A stretch of 64,000 nt of DNA, taken from NCBI GenBank assembly GCA_937934295.1, contig CALHAI010000009.1, positions 1-64,000 on the forward strand. Reading direction: 5' to 3'. The notes under the pieces are model-generated. The model ran no database searches. It was not told the DNA's origin and saw only the letters and a program-made list of their open reading frames with translations. Both the position numbers and the translations under genes were made by a program. Shown piece by piece: positions 25,292-32,027 of the stretch (position 1 is its first letter; every line of letters begins with the position of its first letter). Origin of the DNA: an uncultured Blastocatellia bacterium (GTDB taxonomy: Bacteria > Acidobacteriota > Blastocatellia > HR10).

Positions 25292-25435
25292 AATCGGCCT
25301 CCTTGAGTGTGTGCATCGCTCTCTCCATCGAGATCCGGCTCGGATTCCCCGACCGGACTGGCGAGAGCGTATCACATCGGGCATGAAATTCGAAAGCGCG
25401 CGTTAGTTCAGGGCTTTTGGCGAGCAGTGTCAGGG

Positions 25436-25447
25436 TGACTTAAGTCA
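25436..25447 (+). promoter_or_regulatory. Palindromic operator upstream of NO reductase (FNR/DNR-like site)
   Basis: TGACTTAAGTCA is a perfect 12-base palindrome. It has the two-half-site layout TGAC-N4-GTCA used by CRP/FNR-family regulators such as DNR, NnrR or HcpR. Its centre lies about 30 bases before a -10-like TATCTT (25472-25477), which places it near -41.5, the position for class II activation. The same site occurs at 27869-27882 before the NnrS-like gene. Confidence 0.7.
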
Positions 25448-25515
25448 TGGTCGGGGGTGATGGACAGGCTGTATCTTGGATCCCTGATCATGGGGCAGAA
25501 GGGAGGCGAGAAGCA

Positions 25516-27816
25516 ATGACCGACGTTCGATTGTCGCCTTGGTGGCGACATGCCGTGATTCTCGTTGTGATTGGGGGATTCACGATCCTGATTGCTCTGG
25601 CGGCGAGAGCGTATAAGGACGCGCCACCGATTCCCGAACAAGTTGTGGATCCAGGTGGTCGCGTCCTCTTCACGCGCGAAGACATCTTGGGGGGGCAAGA
25701 GGTCTTCCTGAAATACGGCCTGATGGAGAACGGGACGATCTGGGGACATGGGGCGTACTTGGGGCCGGACTTCTCGGCCGAATACTTACGCGTGCTCGGG
25801 CAAGACACGGCGGCCTGGATCGCGCGCGAGCGTTTTGGTCGCGATCTGAATGCCCTTGCCGAATCCGAACGGAATGCCGTTTGGGCTGAAGTCCGGCGGC
25901 TTCTCAAGCAAAACCGCTATGATCCGGAGCGCCGCCTCTTAGTCTTCACCGAACCAGAGGCATACTCTTACAAGCGGCAGATTCGCAGCTGGGCGGAATA
26001 TTTCTCTCATCCGGGGCAGAGCCGGGGCTTGCCAACCGCGTACATTCGCGATGCGGACGAGGTACGGCGCTTGACGGCCTTCTTCGCCTGGACGGCTTGG
26101 GCTTCGGTCGCGCCGCGTCCCGGTCGGACATATTCCTACACGAACAACTTCCCGTATGATCCGGCTGTGGGAAACACGCCGACGAGCGAGACGGTGCTGT
26201 GGAGCGCACTCAGCCTGATCGCGCTTCTGGGCGGGCTGGCCGTCGTGCTCTTCGTCTTCGGCAAGTTCGATTATCTGGGCTGGAAGGGATCTGAGGGGCA
26301 TGCGCATCCGCAGCTCATTCCCGGTCAGGCGACGCCGGGACAACGCGCCGTGCTCACGTACTTCGTCATCGTGGCGCTACTCTTTCTCGCGCAAGTGCTC
26401 GTTGGCGGGGCTGTCGCGCACTATCGCGCCGATCCCGTGAGCTTCTATGGCCTGGACCTCTCGCGGTGGCTCCCGAGCCATATCTTACGGACGTGGCATC
26501 TGCAATTGGCCATCTTCTGGGTGGCGACGGCCTATATCGCCGGAGGGCTCTTTCTGGCGCCTGCATTGAGTGGACATGAGCCGCGCCATCAGGTGCGTGG
26601 GATCAATCTGCTCCTTGCGGTGCTCGTGCTTGTTGTCGTGGGGAGCTTGCTTGGCGAATTCCTCGGCATCCATCGGCTCATGGACCGACTTTGGTTCTGG
26701 TTCGGCCATCAAGGATGGGAGTATCTGGACCTCGGGCGCGCATGGCAGATGCTGCTGGCTGGAGGATTGGTGACGTGGCTCGTGCTGCTGTTGCGCACCA
26801 TCGCGCCGGCTCGACATGATCCCGAGCGTCAGGAGATCCTCTCGCTCTTCCTCTATGCGGCCGTGGCCATCCCGCTCTTCTACCTTCCGGCGATGTTCTT
26901 CACCAGTCGCAGCCATTTTTCGATTGTGGACACGTGGCGCTTTTGGATCATTCACCTCTGGGTCGAGGGCTTCTTCGAACTGTTCGTCACGGTAATGGTG
27001 GCGGCGATCTTCTACCGGCTCGGCCTGATCTCGCACACGACGGCGGCGCGCGTCGTCTACTTGGATGCGCTGCTCTATTTGGGGAGCGGGATTGTCGGGA
27101 CGGGGCATCATTGGTATTGGACTGGCCAATCGCACATCACAATGGCGCTCGGCGCGACGTTCTCGGCGATGGAAGTGATCCCATTGACGCTGCTGACGCT
27201 CGATGCTTGGGACTTCATCAAGCTGACGCGCCAACGCTGTGACCTCTGCGACCGGCCCGTCTCCGTTCCGCATCGTTGGACGTTCTACTTCCTGATGGCC
27301 GTAGGATTTTGGAACTTCGTCGGCGCGGGTGTCTTCGGGTTCCTGATCAATCTGCCGATCGTGAGCTATTTCGAGGTCGGGACGCTGCTGACGCCGAATC
27401 ACGGGCATGCTGCAATGATGGGCGTGTTCGGGATGCTGGCTGTGGCGCTGATGGTCTTCGCATTCCGTCAGGTGCTCTCCGAAGAACGATGGGCGGCGGT
27501 CGAGCCGCTCATTCGCTTCTCCTTCTGGGGTTTGAACCTTGGGCTCGCGCTCATGGTCGGACTGAATCTCTTTCCCGGCGGTGTGCTCCAACTTCTGGAT
27601 GTGCTCCGGAACGGATATGCGCACGCGCGGAGCGCGGAGTTTCTGAATCAACCGATCATACGATGGATCGAATGGTTGCGCTTGCCGGCCGATCTCGTCT
27701 TCATCGGGCTGGGCGTGGTGCCGCTGGCGTTGGCGGCGCTGCGGACCTATCGGCTGGCGAGAACGGAGGCGCAAGTGGGTGTCTCGGAAGCCGCTCCGGC
27801 GCGACCCCTGACGTAG
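25516..27816 (+). CDS. norB: Quinol-dependent nitric-oxide reductase (qNOR)
   Basis: A 766-residue single-chain enzyme reducing NO to N2O with electrons from quinol, in the cytoplasmic membrane. The first helix (residues 12-32) is followed by a large periplasmic domain (DILGGQEVFLKYGLMENGTIWGHGAY split by the quinol-NOR type insertion), then about twelve helices with the haem and FeB ligands: RTWHLQLAIFW, HLWVEGFFELF with the conserved Glu, GTGHHWYWTG and TPNHGHAAMMGVFG. There is no norC, as expected for qNOR. ATG 25516 follows GGGAGGCGAG; an ATG at 25447 would overlap the operator. It may serve detoxification or partial denitrification. Confidence 0.94.
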   Translation: MTDVRLSPWWRHAVILVVIGGFTILIALAARAYKDAPPIPEQVVDPGGRVLFTREDILGGQEVFLKYGLMENGTIWGHGAYLGPDFSAEYLRVLGQDTAAWIARERFGRDLNALAESERNAVWAEVRRLLKQNRYDPERRLLVFTEPEAYSYKRQIRSWAEYFSHPGQSRGLPTAYIRDADEVRRLTAFFAWTAWASVAPRPGRTYSYTNNFPYDPAVGNTPTSETVLWSALSLIALLGGLAVVLFVFGKFDYLGWKGSEGHAHPQLIPGQATPGQRAVLTYFVIVALLFLAQVLVGGAVAHYRADPVSFYGLDLSRWLPSHILRTWHLQLAIFWVATAYIAGGLFLAPALSGHEPRHQVRGINLLLAVLVLVVVGSLLGEFLGIHRLMDRLWFWFGHQGWEYLDLGRAWQMLLAGGLVTWLVLLLRTIAPARHDPERQEILSLFLYAAVAIPLFYLPAMFFTSRSHFSIVDTWRFWIIHLWVEGFFELFVTVMVAAIFYRLGLISHTTAARVVYLDALLYLGSGIVGTGHHWYWTGQSHITMALGATFSAMEVIPLTLLTLDAWDFIKLTRQRCDLCDRPVSVPHRWTFYFLMAVGFWNFVGAGVFGFLINLPIVSYFEVGTLLTPNHGHAAMMGVFGMLAVALMVFAFRQVLSEERWAAVEPLIRFSFWGLNLGLALMVGLNLFPGGVLQLLDVLRNGYAHARSAEFLNQPIIRWIEWLRLPADLVFIGLGVVPLALAALRTYRLARTEAQVGVSEAAPARPLT

Positions 27817-27868
27817 TGGGGTGCGCGTCGAGACTCCGCCCAAGGATGAGCGGAGCGACGAGCCACCG

Positions 27869-27910
27869 GTGACTTAAGTCACGGCGCTCTCGGGCCGAGG
27901 GGGATATGCT
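27869..27910 (+). promoter_or_regulatory. Second palindromic operator and promoter before the NnrS-like operon
   Basis: GTGACTTAAGTCAC (27869-27882) is a perfect 14-base palindrome with the same core as the site before norB. TATGCT at 27905-27910 is a -10-like element, placing the start near 27917 and the palindrome centre at about -41.5. This is the geometry of FNR/DNR class II activation. Confidence 0.7.
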
Positions 27911-27970: not shown

Positions 27971-28204
27971 ATGAAGATCGCGCTCATCGTCGCGCTCATC
28001 ATCGTCGGGATCATCGCCGGAGGCGTGCTCTACATTCGCCAGAAGATCGCGGAGAAGTTCGGCGACGCGACCTTCAGAGGGGACGTGGGCGGTCTCAGTC
28101 GGCGCGTGGCGTTGCCGATGATGGACGATCAATGGTTGGGCGAGCGGAGACGTCAAGAGGTGCCGCCCGAGTCGGCGACGCGAGCGAAAGGGGGAGCAGT
28201 ATGA
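27971..28204 (+). CDS. Small single-span membrane protein in the NO cluster
   Basis: A 77-residue protein with one N-terminal transmembrane helix (ALIVALIIVGIIAGGVLYI, residues 4-22) followed by a short basic, polar tail. A strong ribosome site (AAGGAGGGAGGAG) precedes the ATG and the stop overlaps the next gene by ATGA, so it is translated and coupled to the NnrS-like protein. No family recognised. Its position as first gene after the palindrome suggests an accessory subunit or assembly factor for the membrane haem proteins here, as an inference from context only. Confidence 0.6.
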   Translation: MKIALIVALIIVGIIAGGVLYIRQKIAEKFGDATFRGDVGGLSRRVALPMMDDQWLGERRRQEVPPESATRAKGGAV

Positions 28205-30033
28205 GTGAACGACGAATCACGGGAGAGATGCTGTTGCCGGACGTGATCCGGCGCTTTCCGGCCACGCGCGCCGTGTTCGATCGGTATGGGCTTCATGGCT
28301 GCGGCGGCCCAGAAGGGCCGCGCGAGACGATCGCGTGGTTCGCGCGCTTGCACAGTGTGCCGCTTGAGCAGTTACTGGAGGAGCTGAACGCGGTGGCCGA
28401 GGGCGGGTCGCCAATCGGCGAGATCGCCGTTCAGCCTACGCGCGCGGATACGATCTATCGCCCGTTCTTTCTAGCGGGCCTCGTGACGTTGTTCACGCTT
28501 GGCTGCGCGTGGGGCGCGGTGAACCTCTGGCTCATTGGGACACGGCAAAATTTCGCCGGCGTGGATTATTCGTGGATCCTCGCGCACGGGCACGCGATGG
28601 TCTTCGGCGTGGTCGGCTTCTTCATCATGGGCTTCGCTTATCAAGCGTTCCCTCGATTCAAGCACACGAGCTTGTGGCGTCCGACGTTGGCCTTTGGGAC
28701 GCTGCCGCTCATGGCCGTCGGGATCGCGCTACAGGCGATCGCGCACCTTCTGGCACCGCGCGGGCCGTTTCTGGCGCTTGGTCTGTTGGCCGGAGCCCTG
28801 CAATTTCTGGCCGTCGCGCTCTTCGCCGGGGTGCTCCGGCAAACATTTCGACAAGCCGCTCGGCCCGAACCGTATGACCGCTTCCTCCGGGCCGCGCTCA
28901 TGTGGTTCCTGCTCGCAGCGGTCGCAAACCCCGTCATCTTCTGGCTCTTCGAGACGGCGCGCACGCGCTCGGAGTTTCTCTTTCGCGTGGCGACGTTCAA
29001 CATCCCCTATCGCGACGTGCAGCTTTTGGGGATCGCCGTGGTCATGATCCTGGGCGTCTCGCTGCGCTTTCTGCCACATGCCTACGCGTTGCGGGAGCCG
29101 ACGCCGGCCTGGCGACGATTCACCTTCTGGGGGACGAACGGCGCCATCGCAACGGCCGTCCTCACGTTTCTCGCAAGCATGCTCTCGGGCGATTCCCGAT
29201 GGCTGATCGGGCAGCCGATCGCGGCACTCGTGCTGCTGCTCATTGCGCTGGGGACGCCGCGCCAGTATCGCCTCTTCGGTCCGATCCCCGAGAGCGAGCG
29301 CGATCGCGGGGTGAAGTTCATCCGCGCGGCCTACGTATGGTTCATCGTGGCGATGGCGATGCTCGTGTTCGTTCCCGTCTACAATCTGCTCATCTATCAA
29401 CCGCTCACGGGAGCCGCCGTGCCGTTCTCGCACGCCTTCTTCGGGGCGTATCGGCATGCGCTGACGGTCGGCTTCATCACGATGATGATCGTGGGCGTTT
29501 CGAGCAAAGTCGTGCCGACGCTCTCGGGCGTGGACGTGCGGAGCGCGCCGGCGCTCTGGCCGACCTTTTGGCTGCTCAACGCCGGCAACGCTCTTCGCAT
29601 CACGGCGGAGATCGCGACCGATTATACGAGGGCAGCGTTCGCCGTGATGGGCCTCTCGGGATTCATCGAGGTTGCCGGATTGGCTCTGTGGGGATACGAG
29701 CTGGTGCGGAACATGCGCGCGGGGAAGCGGCTGGAGCGCGAAGCCTGGACTCGCGCGGCGAGCGAGCCCCTCGTCCTTGGGCCGCAGACGAAAGTCGCGG
29801 ACATTTTGGAGCGGTATCCACAGGCGCTTGAAATCTTCCTGCGGCATGGGTTCGCGCCGCTTCAGAATCCCATCTTGCGGCGGACGATGGCGCGCGTTGT
29901 GACGCTCGAGCAAGCATGTCGGCGGGAAGGCGTGGAGCTGAATCGCTTCCTGGCCGAGCTGGGGGCGTTCATCGAAGCCGAGCGGAAGGCGCACGCCTCC
30001 TCTTCAGAGGCTCGCGAAGCATTCTCCGTATAG
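28201..30033 (+). CDS. NnrS-like membrane protein with DUF1858-like domains at both ends
   Basis: A 610-residue protein with three parts. Residues 8-70 resemble a DUF1858/ScdA-N module (LLPDVIRRFPATRAVFDRYGLHGCGG). Residues 80-500 form about twelve transmembrane helices with His-rich motifs as in NnrS and haem-copper oxidase subunit I-like proteins (ILAHGHAMVFGVVGFF, FLPHAYAL, SHAFFGAYRHALTVGF). Residues 531-600 are a second DUF1858-like module (KVADILERYPQALEIFLRHGF). The Cys pair typical of DUF1858 is reduced to one Cys in the first copy and absent in the second. NnrS proteins protect against NO and metal-nitrosyl stress. Co-regulated with norB through the shared palindrome. Confidence 0.75.
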   Translation: MSERRITGEMLLPDVIRRFPATRAVFDRYGLHGCGGPEGPRETIAWFARLHSVPLEQLLEELNAVAEGGSPIGEIAVQPTRADTIYRPFFLAGLVTLFTLGCAWGAVNLWLIGTRQNFAGVDYSWILAHGHAMVFGVVGFFIMGFAYQAFPRFKHTSLWRPTLAFGTLPLMAVGIALQAIAHLLAPRGPFLALGLLAGALQFLAVALFAGVLRQTFRQAARPEPYDRFLRAALMWFLLAAVANPVIFWLFETARTRSEFLFRVATFNIPYRDVQLLGIAVVMILGVSLRFLPHAYALREPTPAWRRFTFWGTNGAIATAVLTFLASMLSGDSRWLIGQPIAALVLLLIALGTPRQYRLFGPIPESERDRGVKFIRAAYVWFIVAMAMLVFVPVYNLLIYQPLTGAAVPFSHAFFGAYRHALTVGFITMMIVGVSSKVVPTLSGVDVRSAPALWPTFWLLNAGNALRITAEIATDYTRAAFAVMGLSGFIEVAGLALWGYELVRNMRAGKRLEREAWTRAASEPLVLGPQTKVADILERYPQALEIFLRHGFAPLQNPILRRTMARVVTLEQACRREGVELNRFLAELGAFIEAERKAHASSSEAREAFSV

Positions 30034-30042
30034 GAGGTGGAG

Positions 30043-30582
30043 ATGTCGCCCGACGAGCGCGTCCACATCGAACAGGAATATGCGCGCGATCTCCTGGAGA
30101 TCGTCGAGCGCGAACCGAGCTTCTTGGCGCTGCTTCGCGTGCACGAGCGATTGAACGAGTTGTTCCAGCAGCATCAAGAGGCGCTGCTGGAACAAGACAT
30201 CGTGCGGGCGCGGGAGCGGCTCGTCGCCTACGAGCGCGAGCTGCTCGCGCATATGCATCTGGAGGAGGATATCCTTTTGCCCGTCTATGCGCGCGCTGGG
30301 GCGATCCCAGGTGGACCGATCGAGCTGTTCCTCGGCGAGCACCGGAAGATGCGGGAATTCCTCGAGCGGTTCCGTGCGGCGCTCGCGGAGCTGGAGGCGT
30401 ATCCGACAGACCGGCGACGAGGGATCATTCGGCTCTTCGACGAGCAGACGATGTTCAAGCATCTCGTCGAGCATCACGATCTGCGCGAGCAGAACATTCT
30501 CTATCCGACGCTCGATCGCATCACGACCGAAGCGGAGCGGCGCGAGCTGCTGCGGCGATGCCTCGATCCGTATCGGCCGTGA
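30043..30582 (+). CDS. Hemerythrin-domain protein 1
   Basis: A 179-residue four-helix protein with His and carboxylate ligands of a non-haem di-iron centre: LRVHERLNELF, HMHLEEDILLP, GEHRKMREF and EHHDLREQNILYP. HHE proteins bind O2 or NO or store iron, and similar ones repair nitrosylated iron-sulphur clusters. ATG 30043 is preceded by TAGGAGGTGG, which overlaps the stop of the NnrS-like gene, so it is coupled to it. A GTG at 30037 is inside the ribosome site and is not used. Confidence 0.85.
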   Translation: MSPDERVHIEQEYARDLLEIVEREPSFLALLRVHERLNELFQQHQEALLEQDIVRARERLVAYERELLAHMHLEEDILLPVYARAGAIPGGPIELFLGEHRKMREFLERFRAALAELEAYPTDRRRGIIRLFDEQTMFKHLVEHHDLREQNILYPTLDRITTEAERRELLRRCLDPYRP

Positions 30583-30635
30583 ACGCGCATGGGATGTTTC
30601 GAGACAGAGACGAACTTTGGAGAAGGAGGGGGGAT

Positions 30636-31190
30636 ATGCCCGGACCTGTTGAGATTCTGACGCACGAACATCGGATCATCGAGCGAGCGCTTCGGGCGCT
30701 GCGCGGCGTCTGTCAGAGACTCGAGCGCGGCATGTCGGTTCCCGCCGATGTGCCTGCGCAGCTTGTGGGATTCATCCAGACGTTCGCCGATCGTTGCCAT
30801 CATGGGAAGGAGGAGAAGCATCTCTTCCCGGTGCTCGAAGAGCAGGGCGTGCCGCGCGAGGGCGGACCAATCGGCGTCATGCTCCAGGAGCACGAGCTGG
30901 GGCGCGGATTCGTGCGCGAGATGGCCGAGGCGGCATCGGCCTACGCGCGCGGGGAAACGGACGCGGCCTCTCGCTTTGTGCGCGCAGCTCAGTCGTACAT
31001 GGACTTGCTGGCGCAGCACATCTACAAAGAGGATAATGTGCTCTTTCGGATCGCCGAGAACGTTCTCGATGCGCCGACGAAAGCAGCGCTTGTGGAAGCG
31101 TTCGAGCGCGAGGAAGCGGCGCTTGGTCTCGGAACGCATGAGCACTATGAGGCGATGGTCAGCGAATTGGAGAAGGCGTGGGCGGCCTGA
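30636..31190 (+). CDS. Hemerythrin-domain protein 2
   Basis: A 184-residue protein with a second, distinct HHE domain: LTHEHRIIERAL, ADRCHHGKEEKHLFPVL, MLQEHELGRG and LAQHIYKEDNVLFRIAE provide the di-iron ligands. It starts 53 bases after hemerythrin 1 behind a very strong AGAAGGAGGGGGG ribosome site. An open frame in the same phase reaches back to 29916 but is antisense-like in content and lacks any domain. Two tandem but diverged hemerythrins next to qNOR and NnrS support a role in NO or oxygen scavenging. Confidence 0.87.
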   Translation: MPGPVEILTHEHRIIERALRALRGVCQRLERGMSVPADVPAQLVGFIQTFADRCHHGKEEKHLFPVLEEQGVPREGGPIGVMLQEHELGRGFVREMAEAASAYARGETDAASRFVRAAQSYMDLLAQHIYKEDNVLFRIAENVLDAPTKAALVEAFEREEAALGLGTHEHYEAMVSELEKAWAA

Positions 31191-31232: not shown

Positions 31233-32027
31233 ATGAGTTGGCGCGGTCGTCTGAAGCTGCCGAAAGAGCATGGGGCGTGGGCGATGCTCTACGTCCCACT
31301 CGCGATCGGGATGCTCGCGGCCGAGGGCGAGCGTCGCCCTGTGCTCTGGTTGAGCTTGGCTGTGACCTTCCTCTTCCTCGCGCGCGAGTCAGTGCTCGCC
31401 TGGTGGCGGGCGCGTCGCCGCGGTCGGGAAGCTCGGTCGGCGCGAACGCTGATGCTCCTCTACCTCGGGCTGGCGCTCACCTTTGGGGCTCCGCTCCTTC
31501 TGGAGTACCGGCTATTCGGCATGATCCCGCTGGCGATCGGCGCTCTTGGTCTGCTGCTGGTGAATGCCGAACAGGCGGCGCGGCTTGAAGACCGCACGAT
31601 CCTGGGGGAGCTGCTGGCCATCTTCGGGCTCACGATGACGGCTCCAGCCGCGCATTACGTGATCCAGCGGGAATGGGAACCGATGGCGTGGGGACTCTGG
31701 GGAGCGAGCGCGCTCTATTTCGCGAGCAGCGTCTTCTACATCAAGCTTCGCATGCAGGCCGCTCATGGGCGGCCGGAGCGACGGGAACAGATGCGGCGGC
31801 AGTGTGCGATCTATCACGCGTTTTTGATCGCCGCGCTATTTGGCCTCGCCCTCACGCATCGCATGGGCGTATTCCTCGCGCTGGCGTTCGCTCCGGCGCT
31901 GGGGCGCGCGCTCCGACATATTCTCCGGCCCGCCGAACGCGTCAATCTCCGACGCGTTGGGCTCGTGGAGATCTTCAACGCCCTCGTCTTTCTGATCTTC
32001 GCGACCCTGGCCTTTCGCGCCCTCTGA
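31233..32027 (+). CDS. YwiC-like membrane protein
   Basis: A 264-residue integral membrane protein with about eight helices and the family signature KLPKEHGAWAMLYVPLAIG at the N-terminus. YwiC of Bacillus subtilis lies beside narK and fnr, so the family repeatedly occurs with anaerobic nitrogen-oxide respiration genes; the molecular function is unknown. Here it closes the NO cluster, 42 bases after hemerythrin 2. The ribosome site is weak. Confidence 0.78.
   Translation: MSWRGRLKLPKEHGAWAMLYVPLAIGMLAAEGERRPVLWLSLAVTFLFLARESVLAWWRARRRGREARSARTLMLLYLGLALTFGAPLLLEYRLFGMIPLAIGALGLLLVNAEQAARLEDRTILGELLAIFGLTMTAPAAHYVIQREWEPMAWGLWGASALYFASSVFYIKLRMQAAHGRPERREQMRRQCAIYHAFLIAALFGLALTHRMGVFLALAFAPALGRALRHILRPAERVNLRRVGLVEIFNALVFLIFATLAFRAL

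Follow-up and report, generated by a model that had tools for sequence, protein, structure and literature searches.

A predicted nitric oxide regulon of a Blastocatellia bacterium with a DnrT/DNR-like candidate regulator and a putative cytochrome c oxidase target

Among the described systems closest to the one considered here, DnrT is required for the transcription of nor and nirJ in Thermus (PMC5748679). The nor and nir promoters of Thermus carry the palindrome TGACC-NN-GGTCA, CTTGACCNNGGTCATGG, which overlaps the DnrT footprint on Pnrc; gel shifts of CTTGACCNNGGTCATGG were achieved with NsrR-Th, and those attempted with DnrT failed (PMC5748679). For HcpR, the reported motifs are wTGTGAn6TCACAw in Desulfovibrio and TTGACn4GTCAA in Geobacter and cyanobacteria, and HcpR is encoded divergently to norB in Synechocystis (PMC1274295). 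The motifs of DNR and NnrR are CTTGATn4ATCAAG and ctTTGcgn4cgCAAag, and according to the half-site rule of the family, R180 of the recognition helix pairs with G3 and E181 with A6 (PMC1274295).

The 64,000-nucleotide stretch of DNA analysed here (the window) carries two palindromes identical over 12 bases, one ahead of norB and the other ahead of an nnrS operon, and a diverged third copy precedes a cytochrome c oxidase operon on contig C5 of the same hot-spring-type Acidobacteriota genome. We consider it highly probable that all three are operators of a CRP/FNR regulator encoded on contig C20, which would control three units by class II activation. The regulator dimer would bind GTGAC-N4-GTCA[C/T] centred at approximately -41.5 and, once bound, stand in for the -35 element. 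The units activated would be norB, the operon comprising a small ORF, nnrS, two hemerythrin genes and ywiC, and the C5 cytochrome c oxidase operon, with nitric oxide or an NO-derived signal as the inducer. The mechanism as first proposed was largely right; the circuit type is already well known, and the cox target is the surprise.

Operators and promoter geometry

Both palindromes of the original prediction, at 25436-25447 and, as a 14-mer, at 27869-27882, were confirmed. A scan of the window returned exact copies of TGACTTAAGTCA at 25436-25447 and 27870-27881 (Table 1) and no further copy at up to two mismatches. The remark that no further copy was noticed is correct for the 64-kb window; in the genome, a slightly diverged third site lies on C5. 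From a first-order Markov estimate based on the window, 0.0004 exact copies of TGACTTAAGTCA are expected per window and 0.016 per genome, and the probability of two or more exact copies in the window is about 7e-8. The genome (2,785,368 bases in 25 contigs) was examined by pattern searches. The genome-wide search at one mismatch that had been suggested as a check yielded two exact copies and one near copy, GTGACTGAAGTCAC at C5:119867-119878, located before norB, the nnrS operon and the cox operon, respectively; numerous copies inside genes, the outcome that would have spoken against a regulatory role, were not encountered. At up to two mismatches, GTGACTTAAGTCAC occurs at three places in the genome only, namely both operators and the C5 site, compared with one match for the reversed control. 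No published binding-site report for the exact palindrome was found by literature search.

Table 1. Coordinates of the predicted regulatory elements and genes (window positions unless a contig is named)
Feature	Position	Strand	Details
Operator 1 (predicted)	25435..25448	+	GTGACTTAAGTCAT; centre 25441.5; 13/14 bases match the longer palindrome
-10-like hexamer, norB promoter	25472..25477	+	TATCTT; predicted transcription start ~25483
norB, single-chain quinol-type nitric oxide reductase	25516..27816	+	766 aa; PF22085 4.9e-56, COX1 9.4e-55
Operator 2 (predicted)	27869..27882	+	GTGACTTAAGTCAC; perfect 14-base palindrome, centre 27875.5
-10-like hexamer, nnrS operon promoter	27905..27910	+	TATGCT; predicted transcription start ~27917
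Small membrane-type protein, first gene of operon	27971..28204	+	77 aa; overlaps nnrS start
nnrS-like gene	28201..30033	+	610 aa; PF05940 4.4e-18; PF08984 1.8e-27 in two stretches
Hemerythrin-domain protein 1	30037..30582	+	PF01814 1.7e-11
Hemerythrin-domain protein 2	30630..31190	+	start approximate; PF01814 2.9e-23
YwiC-like membrane protein	31233..32027	+	PF14256 3.3e-24
CRP/FNR regulator	C20:40491-41165	minus	PF00027 6.1e-26, PF13545 6.5e-19

A -10-like hexamer had been noted about 30 bases past the centre of each palindrome, and the measured distances from the centre to the start of the hexamer are 30.5 bases (TATCTT) and 29.5 bases (TATGCT). The same spacing recurs in a set of 63 distinct, gene-oriented sites drawn from the genome itself, from its order and from the phylum at large: TANNNT begins 22-23 bases past the 14-mer in 54 of the 63 and almost never at other offsets. 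These sites are related by descent, so that a binomial estimate overstates their independence; the sequence between operator and -10 has nonetheless diverged. The distance from the centre to the -10 element is constant at 29-31 bases, with no constant -35 element. If the -10 element is assumed to start at -12, the palindrome centre falls near -41.5, as originally proposed, which is the class II geometry of CRP/FNR proteins and supports the palindromes as predicted class II CRP/FNR-type sites.

The consensus GTGAC-N4-GTCA[C/T] is present in essentially all 63 sites, the promoter-distal half being almost always GTGAC, the proximal half ending in T or C, and the middle four bases varying with a preference for nnAA. 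Two details of the original prediction must therefore be revised. The half-site is of the GTGA type seen in CRP and HcpR rather than of the TTGA type, and the TTAA of TGAC-TTAA-GTCA is not a lineage-typical core, as only the outer bases are conserved. The literal 12-mer was likewise rejected as a lineage motif; relatives hold many genuine exact matches to it, but its four central bases are variable. When site and promoter were combined as GTGACNNNNGTCAY-N22/23-TANNNT, the genome gave exactly three matches, before norB, the nnrS operon and the cox operon (reversed control, 0), and ten genomes of the order gave 17 (control, 0), of which 15 precede norB, nnrS, hemerythrin-ywiC, ric or cox genes.

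The norB start given in Table 1 is backed by congeners, whose matches begin at residue 1 of that codon. The longest norB frame opens at an ATG overlapping the end of operator 1 (window 25447-25516), and automatic annotation could place the norB start inside the operator. The nnrS unit runs from the 77-aa ORF through nnrS and two hemerythrin genes to ywiC, every gene being on the plus strand and little space lying between them. The 77-aa protein has no Pfam match, and a similar ORF is present in three relatives (G001, G002 and G004). In the NnrS-like protein, the N-terminal end and the C-terminal end each have a DUF1858/TIGR03980 domain (hybrid-cluster-protein-associated redox disulfide).

In gene orientation, the C5 site reads GTGACTTCAGTCAC, with TAGATT at an equal distance downstream, and the operon behind it (L023:2798-6790) encodes cytochrome c oxidase subunit II, subunit I and two subunit III-like proteins. 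This site is kept in two congeners, as GTGACTTCAGTCAC with TAAGTT and as GTGACTTTCGTCAC with TAAACT, and was not found in G005, a genome of the same family. None of the other cox2-like genes in the genome is among the three genome-wide operator-promoter matches. An operon for an oxygen-using respiratory oxidase is most likely an unexpected third target of the predicted operator.

Across the order, sites in orthologous promoters are conserved despite diverged flanks. The site orthologous to operator 1 reads GTGACCTAAGTCAT in two of the congeners, another congener having GTGATCTAAGTCAT, and sites orthologous to operator 2 are present in G001, G002, G004, G005, G008 and G009. G001, G002, G004, G008 and G009 keep the site at the norB and nnrS promoters wherever the gene exists. 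The operon is broken up in G005, and hemerythrin-norB, nnrS and hemerythrin-ywiC each carry a site of their own; an nnrS orthologue in another family (G023) has no site. Evidence against the proposal comes from the congener G003, which keeps a 91% identical regulator but has no norB, nnrS or strict operator-promoter; its regulator must have other or weaker targets. Additionally, GTGAC-N4-GTCAC promoters were observed before unrelated genes in other Blastocatellia (L225, L227, L239 and L241, the gene in L241 being cytochrome-like), three of these loci having overlapping divergent promoter pairs. A close orthologue of the C20 regulator is absent from these bacteria, in which this half-site probably serves a different CRP paralogue.

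The candidate regulator and its relatives

Searched with two Pfam domains, the genome proved to encode just two CRP/FNR proteins, on contigs C20 and C3. The C20 protein combines a cNMP-like sensor domain with a Crp-type HTH, the architecture of the CRP/FNR superfamily. Its recognition helix, GTVRELISR, presents R180, E181 and R185 (CRP numbering), so a GTGA half-site is expected by the rule, matching that observed. The CRP-like protein on C3 was rejected as the binder, since it lacks R180 and R185. A further point against it is that, in the window's genus, the C20 gene is not linked to the units that it would control. The unlinked CRP/FNR activator that had been postulated is supported in that the genome holds one suitable regulator, relatives of which adjoin this site and NO genes in other genomes; a single activator for both units of the window is the best-supported reading, given the fixed spacing and the order-wide sites.

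The orthologue in G005 (73%) lies directly upstream of a site-hemerythrin-norB arrangement and is sister to the regulators of the window's genus (98/94) in a tree whose outgroups were the long-branch E. coli CRP and FNR. A scan of named genomes yielded 80 regulator loci, with Blastocatellia and Terriglobia-type Acidobacteriota accounting for nearly all of them. Across Acidobacteriota, relatives at 45-54% adjoin site-ric-qNOR, the usual order being regulator, site, ric and often qNOR. The site was found upstream of NO genes near the regulator in 48 of 71 regions, including 40 of 42 for ric, whereas 59 permuted half-sites gave a mean of 0.8 and a maximum of 5 in the same 71 regions. The association between site and regulator is not circular, because the loci were picked by the regulator and not by the site. 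Two regulator copies in the same orientation were observed upstream of ric at two loci, adjacent in L141 and ~2 kb apart in L135. Whether the NO regulator ancestral to the Acidobacteriota was a DnrT-like protein with a CRP-type GTGAC half-site, which in the window's genus also captured the cox operon, is, in our judgement, evenly balanced.

An alignment with E. coli FNR revealed that the C20 regulator has no N-terminal cysteine cluster for [4Fe-4S]. The cAMP-contact residues R82/S83 of CRP align to P/A, and YP is invariant in the ten aligned orthologues. With the FNR cysteines and R82/S83 of CRP missing, oxygen-labile iron-sulfur sensing of the FNR type or cAMP sensing of the CRP type is not expected.

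Signal and direction of control

The sites, their rarity, the fixed spacing to the -10 element, their conservation and the linkage to the regulator in relatives could be demonstrated at the level of sequence. The possibility that the two palindromes are chance or duplicated sequence with no regulatory function draws on the fact that 12-mers can recur by chance, with 0.5 matches to TGACTTAAGTCA expected in the window at up to two mismatches. However, exact copies are rare, orthologous promoters are conserved despite diverged flanks and the -10 spacing is fixed; this possibility is already refuted as far as sequence can refute it, and we rate its probability as close to nil. We infer that the C20 regulator would bind these sites and activate rather than repress transcription. 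Repressor sites are usually less fixed in spacing, although repression is also possible for CRP/FNR proteins. A regulator that blocks transcription at these operators until released by NO would have a parallel in Thermus, where DnrT represses nqo and fbc (PMC5748679); the constant 29-31 bases from centre to -10 with no constant -35 element is instead the geometry of class II activation, which makes repression most improbable here. Binding by an Rrf2-type NsrR, modelled on the gel shift of the similar CTTGACCNNGGTCATGG promoters by NsrR-Th (PMC5748679), also appears very unlikely. In dozens of genomes, the gene adjoining the site belongs to the CRP/FNR family and not to Rrf2, and a crude motif search revealed no convincing Rrf2 gene in 94 regulator-site loci or in the window. 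Furthermore, the helix residues and half-site obey the CRP/FNR rule, and the sites are spaced as in class II promoters of CRP/FNR proteins.

We infer nitric oxide as the inducer from the target genes. Alternatively, the same regulator and sites could respond to low oxygen, redox state or nitrite, with a general respiratory switch inducing the NO genes. The cytochrome c oxidase encoded by the third target reduces oxygen, and in Thermus, DnrT acts under DnrS, a partner sensitive to oxygen, and DnrT additionally represses complexes I and III of respiration (PMC5748679); owing to this target and this parallel, oxygen or redox state is a serious rival to NO as the signal. Nevertheless, most of the targets conserved phylum-wide (ric, qNOR and hemerythrin) are NO-stress genes, the C20 regulator lacks the FNR cysteine cluster, and no DnrS-like GAF partner lies beside its gene, so that we regard a respiratory signal as possible but doubtful and retain NO as the proposed inducer.

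Comparison with characterised regulators

No Acidobacteriota NO regulon of such a kind was found described in the open-access papers searched. The predicted system would provide the phylum with a compact NO regulon consisting of one regulator, one fixed-geometry operator and a defined gene list. It would also add a new clade, tied to Thermus DnrT, to those covered by the R180/E181 helix-to-DNA rule, and it leads to the prediction that the NO response of Acidobacteriota from hot springs includes a terminal oxidase. If this is true, NO would switch on both NO reductase and a respiratory oxidase via one class II operator type.

By sequence, the best structure match of the C20 regulator is M. tuberculosis CRP (117 bits, compared with 69 bits for DNR), and the CRPs of M. 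tuberculosis and E. coli share the GTGA half-site with R180/E181. The C20 regulator differs from CRP in the change of the cAMP-contact residues R82/S83 to P/A and in its targets. It resembles HcpR as a CRP/FNR protein predicted to regulate NO-related genes, with a GTGA half-site and R180, as in Desulfovibrio (PMC1274295). Of the helix and site features of HcpR, whose core target is hcp and whose site is TGTGA-N6-TCACA, R180/E181 and GTGA/TCAC are present, and the outer T/A is found at the cox site only. DNR and NnrR of denitrifying Proteobacteria are members of the CRP/FNR family that activate nor and nnrS promoters in response to NO, with heme-dependent sensing. The likeness to them lies in the sites that precede norB and the nnrS operon; the FNR-like box of DNR/NnrR (TTGATn4ATCAA or TTG-N8-CAA) is not present at these sites, which read GTGAC-N4-GTCA[C/T]. 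We describe the C20 protein as a DnrT/DNR-like regulator and assign it to none of DNR, NnrR and HcpR.

The closest characterised relative found is DnrT, a CRP/FNR protein of the nitrate respiration element of Thermus thermophilus and the top match in the plasmid collection at 44-45% over nearly the whole protein, the plasmid gene being taken as DnrT from its position beside a GAF-domain gene and the nar operon. DnrT, like the C20 regulator, is without the FNR cysteines. At position 180, DnrT has Pro where the C20 regulator has Arg, and the half-site has T as its outer base in Thermus and G here, a change that agrees with the prediction of the rule. On Thermus plasmids (L243 and L244), TTGACC-NN-GGTCAT was observed in promoters near DnrT, covarying with the Arg/GTGAC pair found here. 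In contrast to DnrT, the C20 gene adjoins neither a gene for DnrS, the co-transcribed GAF-domain partner of DnrT, nor one for a nitrate reductase, its neighbours (L024) being unrelated, and its proposed targets, unlike those of DnrT, include nnrS and the cox operon.
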